From: Leptolyngbya sp. FACHB-8
Lineage (GTDB): Bacteria > Cyanobacteriota > Cyanobacteriia > Elainellales > Elainellaceae
Length of the DNA: 64,000 bases
Assembly: GCF_014695575.1 (NCBI RefSeq)
Contig: NZ_JACJOO010000071.1
Location: 62,001 to 126,000, forward strand
Reading direction: 5' to 3'
The position numbers were made by a program, and so were the translations under genes. The notes beneath the pieces were generated by a model that was given only the letters and a program-made list of their open reading frames with translations, did not search any database and was not told the DNA's origin. Shown piece by piece: positions 15,586-62,268 of this stretch. How positions within the stretch are numbered: the stretch's first letter is position 1; every line of letters begins with the position of its first letter.

Positions 15586-15692
15586 TTAGGAGGTTTCTGC
15601 ATAAGAATTTACCCAGAATGTTGGTGCTTTGCCCGCTTCGCGGGCAAAGCACCAACATTCTGGGGGTAATTTCATTACTGGAAATCTCCTTA
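15586..15692 (+). repeat. 107-bp hairpin element (GGAGATTTC ends), copy 1
   Basis: Ends TTAGGAGGTTTCTGCATAAG and GGAAATCTCCTTA; inner perfect stem-loop at 15612-15664 whose stem includes TTGGTGCTTTGCCCGC around loop TTC. The same layout and exact length recur at 30740-30846 and 49651-49757. Each copy is bordered by TTA on both sides. Confidence 0.88.
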
Positions 15693-30575: not shown

Positions 30576-30620
30576 CAGGTTATTCAATGCGCGATTCTCA
30601 GTGCGTTTTTCCTATTTACC

Positions 30621-30738
30621 CTGAGTTCGGGTTAAGGGCGTTTTCGAGTGCCGCGCGTTGCGCGGCACTCGAAAACGCTCATTTTGGCGTGCACTATGTG
30701 CACGCCAAAATGAGCACTTCAGCTTATCCCGAACTGAG
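30621..30738 (+). repeat. Two-hairpin element with GAGTTCGGGTTAAG ends
   Basis: Outer inverted repeat GAGTTCGGGTTAAG and CTTATCCCGAACTGAG encloses two back-to-back perfect hairpins, 30638-30678 (GCGTTTTCGAGTGCCGCGCG stem) and 30677-30715 (GCTCATTTTGGCGTGCAC stem). The two-armed layout matches that of the 132-bp element at 42675. A partial relative of the left end (TAAGGGCGTTTTTGAG) is at 38749-38764. Confidence 0.8.
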
Positions 30739-30739
30739 G

Positions 30740-30846
30740 TTAGGAGATTTCCAGATAAGAACTTCCCCATTATTTGGAAAAAAGGCGCGGCGAAGCCGCG
30801 CCTTTTTTCCAAATAATGGGGATATTGTTTCTCAGAAATCTCCTTA
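30740..30846 (-). repeat. 107-bp hairpin element (GGAGATTTC ends), copy 2
   Basis: Ends TTAGGAGATTTCC and GAAATCTCCTTA; inner stem-loop 30765-30821 with stem CCCCATTATTTGGAAAAAAG and core GGCGCGG. Same total length as copies 1 and 3, but the inner stem sequence is completely different while its pairing is perfect. Its right end supplies the TAA stop codon of the C39-like gene (30844-30846). Confidence 0.87.
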
Positions 30847-32064: not shown

Positions 32065-32163
32065 TTTCCGGCTGGGTGGAATAGGCATAGGTAGCTCATT
32101 TCATCCAGCCCCATACCCATGTTGAACCAGAACCCAGCGGGTCTAGATGTTTGGCAACTGCTA

Positions 32164-32257
32164 TATAGCGCTGTGCACGTTGATTAAGTACGGTGGTGTG
32201 GGGCACTTCGCGCCCACACCACCGTTGCTGTACTTAACGCACTTGCACATTGCTATA
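32164..32257 (+). repeat. TATAGC-ended hairpin element, copy 1 (94 bp)
   Basis: TATAGCGCTGTGCACGTTGA, then TTAAGTACGGTGGTGTGGGG stem, loop CTTCGC, then complement and GCACTTGCACATTGCTATA. A second copy is at 38777-38865. Paired G-C here is A-T there within GGTGGTGTGGG / CCCACACCACC. Confidence 0.87.
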
Positions 32258-35859: not shown

Positions 35860-35907
35860 CAGCAATTCTCATTTTGAAATCAGGCCCGAGAACCGCGCGC
35901 CAAAGGC
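35860..35907 (-). repeat. 132-bp hairpin element, truncated copy 3
   Basis: CAGCAATTCTCATTTTGAAA then ATCAGGCCCGAGAACCGCGC and GCCAAAGGC match one end of the full elements at 42675 and 62128, then stop in mid-stem. The loop AAA is inverted relative to the flanking end when compared with the full copies (which read TTT in this orientation). Confidence 0.82.
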
Positions 35908-38718: not shown

Positions 38719-38776
38719 TCTAAATATCGCTTCAAATTTGGACTAAGGGCGTTTTTGAGGAGGGCGCACAGCGCTA

Positions 38777-38865
38777 TATAGTGCTGTGCGCATTGATTAA
38801 GTACGGTGGTATGGGGCACTCCGTGCCCCATACCACCGTACTTAATGCACTTACACATTGCTCAT
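38777..38865 (+). repeat. TATAGC-ended hairpin element, copy 2 (89 bp)
   Basis: TATAGTGCTGTGCGCATTGA, TTAAGTACGGTGGTATGGGG stem, loop ACTCCGT, complement, then GCACTTACACATTGCT. Differs from copy 1 by paired changes in the stem and lacks 5 bases on the right side. Confidence 0.87.
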
Positions 38866-42665: not shown

Positions 42666-42815
42666 GCATCAAGCCAGCAATTCTCAGTATGGGCATCAAA
42701 GCCAAGAGTTCACGCCCTACGGGCGTGAACTCTTGGCTTTGATGCCCGAGAACCGCGCGCCAAAGGCGCGCGGTTCTCGGGCCTGATTTCAAAATGAGAA
42801 TTGCTGGCATCAAGC
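42666..42815 (-). mobile_element. 132-bp MITE-like element, copy 1, with 9-bp target duplication
   Basis: Element 42675-42806 has terminal inverted repeats CAGCAATTCTCA (right end read on minus) and GAGAATTGCTG, and is flanked on both sides by the direct repeat GCATCAAGC (42666-42674 and 42807-42815). Inside are two adjacent perfect hairpins: one with GGGCATCAAAGCCAAGAGTT and core CACGCCC-TAC-GGGCGTG, one with CCCGAGAACCGCGCGCC around AAA. The other full copy at 62128-62259 has the same 132-bp length, inverted orientation, and its own different 9-bp duplication. No coding capacity. Confidence 0.93.
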
Positions 42816-42845
42816 CTAGAAACGACTTGCATGGAACAATTGGTT

Positions 42846-42906
42846 TTCGAGCTTTAGAGGCGAGAGAGTGCCCGATGGGCACGAACTCTCGCCTCTAAAG
42901 CTCGAA
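42846..42906. repeat. 61-bp hairpin
   Basis: Arms TTCGAGCTTTAGAGGCGAGA and complement around GTGCCC-GAT-GGGCAC. Confidence 0.86.
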
Positions 42907-43036
42907 ATGGGAAGTGCTGAAAAACACCGAACTAGAAGACAAAATTTATAACAATGCTTTGAAAAGATATCCCCGTTTTTGCCGTTCAGACCTATATTTG
43001 TAGGCATCAAAGCAGACTTACCTTCAACATCTCAGA

Positions 43037-49644: not shown

Positions 49645-50187
49645 CCTGTCTTAGGGGATTTCCAGCAATAAAATTACCTCCGTGATATTGGTGCTTTGCC
49701 CGCGAAGCAGGCAAAGCACCAATATCACGGGTAAATTCTTATGCAGAAATCTCCTTAGATCCTGCACCAAATCCTGAAGCCCTATTTTTCCAATGTCCAT
49801 ATGAAGGGGTTGCTGGGTTAAGAACGGCTAACCCACACCCCCTAACCCCCTCTCCTGGGAGAGGGGGGATCGGAGAAAAACAGCTCAATGGTTGTTAAAA
49901 AGGTTTTCCGGCTTGATCTCCCCTCTTCTGGGAGAGGGACCGGGGGTATGGGCTCAGGGCGATCGCTTCAAACAAGCGCATAAACCTAATTTAAAACCCA
50001 CCGATGCGAAGCGCCACATTCACCTCCCACCAATAACTCCTTGTGCCAGGGGGTCTGGGGGACGGCACCCCGTCCTCCAGTCGGGGAGTTTGAGGGGCGA
50101 CGCGCCCTCAAGCAGGGTTTCCAACATGCAACCAAAACGTTATAAAGTTCTGAATGGGTTCGCCATTTAGAATTCTTTAATCTCCTT
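49645..50187. other. Spacer after ureB
   Basis: About 540 bases holding the 107-bp element (49651-49757), a C/G-rich pair of GGGAGAGGG hairpins (around 49845-49868 and 49919-49945) and a short GAGGGCGC hairpin (50090-50111). ureC is not present in any frame. Confidence 0.6.
49651..49757 (-). repeat. 107-bp hairpin element (GGAGATTTC ends), copy 3
   Basis: Inverted relative to copy 1. Stem with TTGGTGCTTTGCCCGC is shared with copy 1, but the outer stem part differs by matched changes on both arms (here GTGATATTGG / CCAATATCAC, there AGAATGTTGG / CCAACATTCT). Begins 7 bases after the ureB stop. Confidence 0.9.
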
Positions 50188-60890: not shown

Positions 60891-60991
60891 TAAACCAGGA
60901 CTTACGCAAGCCCGCTACCTACAGTGCATTGTTGTTGTGGGTGGGGTGCTCCGCACCCCACCCACAACAACAATGCGTAAGTCCTGTAAAC
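60891..60991. mobile_element. 91-bp MITE-like element with 5-bp target duplication
   Basis: Element 60896-60986 has perfect 13-bp terminal repeats CAGGACTTACGCA / TGCGTAAGTCCTG and is flanked by TAAAC on each side. Inner perfect hairpin at 60925-60976 with GCATTGTTGTTGTGGGTGGG, loop CTC. A degenerate end of this family may border the element at 46375-46455. Confidence 0.85.
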
Positions 60992-62064: not shown

Positions 62065-62120
62065 GACATGCCTAATGCTCTACGTTCTACTTAAGCAGAA
62101 CGTAGAGCATTAGACATGTC
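62065..62120. repeat. 56-bp hairpin
   Basis: Arms GACATGCCTAATGCTCTACG... and complement (one T/C difference), centre CTTAAG. Its last two bases are part of the 9-bp direct repeat of the next element. Confidence 0.86.
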
Positions 62121-62268
62121 TTCCATTCAGCAATTCTCATTTTGAAATCAGTCCCGAAAACCGCGCGCCTTTGGCGTGCGGTTTTCGGGCCTCAAAGCCA
62201 AGAGTTCACGCCCGTAGGGCGTGAACTCTTGGCTTTGAGGCCCATACTGAGAATTGCTGTCTTCCATT
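62119..62268 (+). mobile_element. 132-bp MITE-like element, copy 2, with 9-bp target duplication
   Basis: Element 62128-62259, same termini as copy 1 (CAGCAATTCTC / GAGAATTGCTG), opposite orientation, flanked by TCTTCCATT at 62119-62127 and 62260-62268. The two inner hairpins differ from copy 1 by matched pairs: CCCGAAAACC / GGTTTTCGGG against CCCGAGAACC / GGTTCTCGGG, and GGCCTCAAAGCC / GGCTTTGAGGCC against GGCATCAAAGCC / GGCTTTGATGCC. Confidence 0.93.

Follow-up and report, generated by a model that had tools for sequence, protein, structure and literature searches.

The window, the whole 64,000-nucleotide stretch that was analysed, belongs to a 6.93-Mb draft genome of 95 contigs (99.5% complete) and holds 111 occurrences of the HIP1 octamer GCGATCGC against about one expected, the host being a cyanobacterium. 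Two full copies of a 132-bp MITE lie in it in opposite orientation, at 42675-42806 and 62128-62259, bounded by the same terminal inverted repeats (CAGCAATTCTCA / TGAGAATTGCTG, 12 bp perfect with an imperfect extension to ~17 bp). A sequence-only reading had described these two copies with common ends and a separate 9-bp direct repeat for each, and both descriptions were confirmed, the repeat being GCATCAAGC at copy 1 and TCTTCCATT at copy 2. The features are as follows.

42675 to 42806, plus strand: MITE copy 1, 132 bp, hairpin 1 first (the reference orientation)
42666 to 42674, no strand: target-site duplication GCATCAAGC, 9 bp, left of copy 1
42807 to 42815, no strand: target-site duplication GCATCAAGC, 9 bp, right of copy 1
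42675 to 42692, plus strand: left end of copy 1, 18/18 match to positions 1403-1420 of a 1420-bp insertion sequence (IS) of relative G023
42790 to 42806, minus strand: right end of copy 1, 17/17 match to positions 1-17 of the same IS
42691 to 42747, no strand: hairpin 1 of copy 1, 27-bp perfect arms, loop TAC
42744 to 42782, no strand: hairpin 2 of copy 1, 18-bp perfect arms, loop AAA
62128 to 62259, minus strand: MITE copy 2, 132 bp, opposite to copy 1
62119 to 62127, no strand: target-site duplication TCTTCCATT, 9 bp, left of copy 2
62260 to 62268, no strand: target-site duplication TCTTCCATT, 9 bp, right of copy 2
62187 to 62243, no strand: hairpin 1 in copy 2 with perfect arms of 27 bp, which differ from those of copy 1 by one double change (A-T to C-G)
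62153 to 62189, no strand: hairpin 2 in copy 2 with a single G-T mismatch
35860 to 35907, minus strand: truncated third copy, one end and half of hairpin 2, without the second end
30619 to 30740: copy of an unrelated 122-bp MITE family

Copy 1 has twins of 100% identity at G000:C58:21923-22054 and G000:C56:58199-58330, where G000 is the genome of the window. Both hairpins had been called perfect, which holds for hairpin 1 of the two copies and for hairpin 2 of copy 1 and fails for hairpin 2 of copy 2 at its G-T mismatch. As the GCCC block at 42744-42747 is common to hairpins 1 and 2 of copy 1, the two cannot both be fully extended at once. The three-armed structure formed together with the ends is right as a calculated single-strand fold, in which two hairpins are predicted to be closed by the ends at -67 kcal/mol (z = -17.3), a value matched by none of 200 shuffles. 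The truncated copy breaks in the loop region, next to the centre of hairpin 2. Beside copy 1, the right border GAAATGGGAAGTGCTG of a hairpin at 42838-42918 resembles a decayed MITE end CAAAATGAGAATTGCTG, and this hairpin is possibly an old single-hairpin copy.

A genome-wide search for the ends, which the sequence-only reading had proposed, gave 277 matches to the 11-bp end CAGCAATTCTC in 6.93 Mb against 1 for the reversed control pattern, and systematic reading of 1.97 Mb gave 47 elements, of which 42 have two hairpins and the other 5 a single one. The genome-wide number is estimated at ~140-165, namely ~165 by extrapolation from the 1.97 Mb and ~140 from 277/2, the latter being the safer estimate as some contigs in the 1.97 Mb were picked for holding copies. 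Several contigs of the draft break off within a copy, at about position 103-113. A comparison of the MITE with a plasmid collection returned no match.

An exact 9-bp border repeat was found in 49 of 93 candidate elements, and exact border repeats of 5, 6, 7, 8, 10, 11, 12 or 13 bp in none of them. The flanks of the copies of 126-135 bp, another point that had been suggested for checking, carry the 9-bp duplication with at most one mismatch in 71/82 cases (55 exact, 16 with one mismatch), and the single-hairpin copies of 82-90 bp are also flanked by 9-bp duplications. Mismatch within recognisable duplications averages 3.2%, or ~1.6% per repeat copy, against a DNA distance of 28% to the congener G001, which is without the MITE; the insertions are therefore young by comparison. 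The target consensus RNWTNAWNY is weak and the flanks are richer in A+T than the genome (44% vs 50% G+C). Joined flanks fell inside an ORF of at least 150 aa in 1/75 cases compared with 388/800 random points, and insertions survive almost only between genes. No clear preference for insertion next to a hairpin was seen (16/79 vs 257/1500 random intergenic points).

Three copies are located inside members of other repeat families (L198:7772, L225:6987 and L182:16451). For these, the MITE and one 9-bp copy were removed and the joined flanks were aligned to intact members of the family concerned. The flanks of L198:7772 and L225:6987 align across the junction to many intact members, mostly gap-free, and those of L182:16451 align across it with one or more small gaps. 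MITEs that landed within other repeats reveal paralogous empty sites. The reverse nesting occurs at L116:6936, where a different MITE with its own TACTGA duplication lies within a copy of the 132-bp family. A further member of the hairpin repeat family CAGGACTTACGCAAGCCC...CATTTGTGTTGTGGGTGGGGTGC, which holds the insertion at L225:6987, is present in the window at 60896-60977. In the congener G001 the first window site has the same neighbour genes, a spacer of ~275 bp vs 667 bp and no MITE; the orthologous sites are clearly syntenic (72% identity), but their spacers have diverged beyond base-level alignment, so exact empty sites are unreadable there.

Searching family-level relatives by the end motif uncovered, in G023, a 1420-bp IS with a single ORF of 435 aa, the transposase gene being present in nine identical or nearly identical copies, and the IS copies whose borders were read have perfect 9-bp duplications. 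The IS ends are unequal, CAGCAATTCTCAGTATGG (18 bp, that of the MITE left end) and CAGCAATTCTCATTTTG (17 bp, that of the right end), and both are identical to those of the MITE, while no match to the 1420-bp IS was found anywhere in the MITE interior. Judged from these alignments, the MITE combines the two termini of an ISNCY-type, putatively DDE, IS (their outer 17-18 bp) with two palindromes not derived from the IS. The element is short, non-coding and high-copy (132 bp, ~140-165 copies), has 12-bp perfect terminal inverted repeats, makes a target-site duplication of one fixed length (9 bp only) and has its ends (17 + 18 bp) and duplication length in common with an autonomous transposon, and we regard it as almost certainly a MITE of this insertion-sequence family.

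The class of the transposase was approached through profiles and homologues. The Pfam model DDE_Tnp_1 scored 21.6 bits against a cut-off of 23, DDE_Tnp_1_assoc was also under its cut-off, the NCBIfam IS4/IS701 models were far under theirs, and a PDB sequence search with the transposase gave no match. A Gloeothece homologue of 48% identity is annotated as 'ISNCY family transposase', where ISNCY means 'not classified yet'. Among homologues of 31-93% identity D127, D216 and E336/E338 are invariant, which makes them candidates for the DDE triad. Weak profile matches, the alignment with its invariant acidic residues and the annotation of the homologue together suggest, tentatively, a transposase of DDE type. 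The same CAGCAATTCTCATTTT ends and 9-bp duplications recur in homologous ISs carried by plasmids of Calothrix, Anabaena and Nostoc, and a gammaproteobacterial homologue in Saccharobesus has CAGCAATTATTGGT ends with a 9-bp duplication, CAG... ends and the duplication length being kept in the copies of all four. The Gloeothece IS has the ends with no intact duplication, and the Legionella homologue has weak ends only, without a duplication. Same-end elements of 165 bp and 143 bp from outside the family were also noticed in Nostoc (L274 and L275, perfect ends) and Candidatus Competibacter (L267, one end mismatch), which suggests that the helper ends may be conserved across phyla. Other matches of the 22-bp pattern scan, in archaeal and other genes, look like chance or coding sequence, only the Nostoc and Competibacter loci being element-like.

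From the ends and the duplication length we infer that the MITE was mobilised by an IS of the G023 type. The transposase would act in trans on the MITE ends, make 9-bp staggered cuts in the target and join the MITE to it. The claim that the element was inserted by a transposase making 9-bp staggered cuts is supported by the copy-specific duplications, the empty sites and the same-end IS in relatives. A same-end IS with a 9-bp duplication, for which a search had been suggested as the source, was found in relatives such as G023 and is absent from the window's own genome. The helper transposase gave 0 matches at E 1e-5 in G000 and in the congener G001, and matches in 18/36 genomes of the family. 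A 53-bp stretch at G000:C93:10878-10930 is 87% identical to the transposase gene and looks like a relic. The IS4/IS5-type transposases of the own genome (PF01609, 7 loci) were considered as the source and rejected, none of them being flanked by MITE ends or helper-like. Long elements bounded by MITE ends were sought in ~2 Mb of the same genome and only nested or chance pairs of up to 265 bp were obtained. In other drafts fragments of the helper IS turn up at contig ends, and a multi-copy helper in this genome should therefore have left traces. The MITE is very probably an orphan in this genome, a plasmid outside the assembly being a possible seat of the helper; the IS would have been lost later, with the 53-bp relic left, or would be located outside the assembly.

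In the alignment of 33 copies, 98.8% of the structure cells are paired, with double changes in 17 pairs and 52 cells, and this combination of pairing and double changes was reached by 0/500 shuffles and 0/6 slid structures. In 66 distinct copies Watson-Crick pairs make up 97% of hairpin 1, and 127 of its cells carry double changes. Pairing is broken by G-T and T-G in 36 cells and by A-C and C-A in 42, and pairs tolerable in one RNA strand are therefore not favoured. The loop triplets occur in both orientations (TAC/GTA 25/16, AAA/TTT 20/15, GAA/TTC 14/9) and in all combinations. Flipping is independent between the two hairpins, the four main loop combinations being present 9, 9, 9 and 5 times. 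On a copy tree of 126 columns, which is poorly resolved and makes the flip counts rough, oriented loop types need 28 and 27 changes, compared with 12 and 11 when a loop is equated with its reverse complement. Loop orientation is as scattered on this tree as shuffled labels (12 vs 12.5 and 11 vs 11.2). One copy, 89 bp long, folds back on itself perfectly and carries the same end at either side.

Hairpin interiors are variable among the same-end MITEs of relatives. G012 and G025 have MITEs of ~131 bp with two hairpins whose arms are largely different, and G013 has a two-hairpin MITE with unrelated arms. Those of G023, G007, G028, G033 and G021 measure 132-154 bp and are without long hairpins, the fold z being only -2 to -5 for the first four of these genomes. 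Within the few genomes sampled, those that carry hairpin MITEs are without an intact helper, and plain MITEs are found in some of those that have one, which we treat as a lead, not a result. The genome of the window also has a second, unrelated two-hairpin MITE family of 122 bp with ends ACCTSAGTTCGGG, flipping loops and 6-7-bp duplications of the form TANNTA, represented at 30619-30740 and by 54 copies in 1.97 Mb; its end pattern has 259 matches in the genome and 97 in the relative G016.

Hairpins of other kinds are also plentiful in the window. Over positions 1-64000 perfect and near-perfect hairpins are very dense, with 64 inverted-repeat pairs of at least 14 nt within 60 bp, and many of them differ in sequence and follow the same plan (~25-bp arms, 3-nt loop). 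A single-hairpin repeat GCTATATAGCGCTGTGC...AAGTACGGTGGTGTGGGGCAC occurs at 32160-32215 and 38773-38828, and a further copy of it interrupts a 122-bp MITE at L214:1341. A hairpin repeat family with ends TTAGGAGATTTCC / AGAAATCTCCTTA is located at 15586-15692, 30740-30846 and 49651-49757. The stretch of ~115 bp at 49997-50112 is resembled at 73-84% in more than 10 places of the congener G001 and is probably another repeat family.

Taken as a whole, the data are best explained by a non-autonomous MITE of an ISNCY-type IS, now an orphan, whose hairpins are kept by DNA-level events, an explanation to which we assign a probability of roughly 0.85. A palindrome element moved through single-stranded DNA by an IS200/IS605 or RAYT enzyme, as are PATEs and REPs or REPINs, would share the perfect hairpins and the intergenic position. 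REPs and REPINs have a GTAG/CGTC tag beside the palindrome and a RAYT transposase, and terminal repeats with 9-bp duplications argue against assigning the MITE to them. Such terminal inverted repeats and duplications are by definition absent in PATEs (PMC3119063), and the same ends are found on an IS whose transposase is apparently of DDE type. The single-stranded route is hence already refuted by the 9-bp duplications and the matching IS, and we give it next to no weight.

Template switching within inverted repeats has two products, arm homogenisation and spacer inversion (PMC8604942, PMC8794818), and as these are what the MITE hairpins display, the hairpins appear to be kept and flipped at the DNA level. 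Strand switching within a hairpin at replication, or cruciform resolution, would rewrite one arm from its partner and turn the centre round, and mainly such events would keep the arms perfect and flip the loops with no need of selection for a folded RNA. Covariation alone gives no proof of causal direction between correction and selection, and with this limit we consider maintenance by template switching or inversion, rather than by RNA-level selection, the probable one. The hairpins might instead be a selected RNA cargo, acting as transcription insulators or terminators or as stabilisers of mRNA and making an intergenic MITE harmless or useful, and the very stable folds, the structure kept while the sequence changes and the near-exclusive intergenic position speak for it. 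Yet exceptions of the G-U type are not favoured over A-C, no T-run follows the hairpins, and no terminator was called on the MITE. Convergent-gene sites are not in excess either (5 convergent, 13 divergent and 20 tandem vs 640, 965 and 2124 for random points), and the loop flipping and the fold-back copy are left unexplained by RNA selection. An RNA cargo is accordingly unlikely in our estimate. An Rfam search matched no model to the MITE, its only match in the window being a tRNA elsewhere.

The hairpins could also serve transposition, either through an extrusion that brings the ends together or through a single-stranded or cruciform form that randomises the loops in each cycle. Loop orientation as random as shuffled labels would fit such a role, as would the recurrence of the two-hairpin plan in two unrelated families here (132 and 122 bp) and in two other genera. 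Against it, G023, G007, G028 and G033 have same-end MITEs of comparable size without such hairpins, and the single-hairpin copies of 82-90 bp were inserted with 9-bp duplications as well. DDE transposases normally act on double-stranded ends, and this usual substrate again argues against the role, which we hold to be improbable. The stricter version, in which the element is extruded at every jump, as a cruciform or in single-stranded state, and then resolved at random, is slightly less probable still. If true, random resolution at each jump would produce random loop orientation among copies with the arms kept identical, it would explain why unrelated MITE families of this lineage converge on a two-hairpin plan, and the palindromes would be functional parts replacing the interior of the helper, not decoration.

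The element offers an unusually complete natural record of a bacterial MITE at work, with many dated insertions, its empty sites, the matching helper in relatives and probable helper loss in the host. The helper transposase comes from the poorly classified ISNCY group, and the terminal sequences and the 9-bp length of the cut have now been defined across cyanobacteria. Arm homogenisation and loop inversion recur in dozens of parallel cases and allow one to ask directly whether genomic hairpins are kept by selection or by self-repairing replication errors, and the same two-hairpin plan in unrelated MITE families makes it a testable question what hairpin cargo does for a MITE.

As a kind the MITE is already known; it stands out by a two-hairpin cargo that probably evolves by self-templating, by its orphan state and by the plan on which an unrelated MITE family has converged with it. 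ISs annotated as ISNCY in G023 and on plasmids of Calothrix PCC 7716, Anabaena cylindrica PCC 7122, Nostoc edaphicum and Gloeothece verrucosa PCC 7822 have the outer 16-18 bp of the MITE and, where intact, its 9-bp duplication (none seen in the Gloeothece copy); unlike it they are 1.4-1.9 kb long, encode a transposase, are without the two-hairpin interior and do not occur in the genome of the window. The Anabaena/Nostoc element Nezha (Zhou et al. 2008), for which ISNpu3-like elements are the proposed mover as described in PMC3049150, is likewise a cyanobacterial MITE with an end-sharing IS as its proposed mover, a likeness by description only. The 187-nt MITE of Microcystis PCC 7806 (PMC11448079) is also intergenic, high-copy and stem-loop forming with ends matching an IS, but has 8-bp duplications, ISL3 ends GGCTCTTCG and its source IS in the same genome. 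The mutations described for quasipalindromes (PMC8794818, PMC8604942) show the arm homogenisation and spacer inversion of the MITE hairpins and were reported in RNA genes and yeast genes, unlike the transposon-family cargo here. In Haloquadratum, PATEs (PMC3119063) contain palindromes as does this MITE, but these are near-terminal and IS605-derived and stand without terminal repeats or duplications, whereas the halo-MITEs of the same genus (PMC3119063) likewise have only terminal bases in common with their helper transposon.
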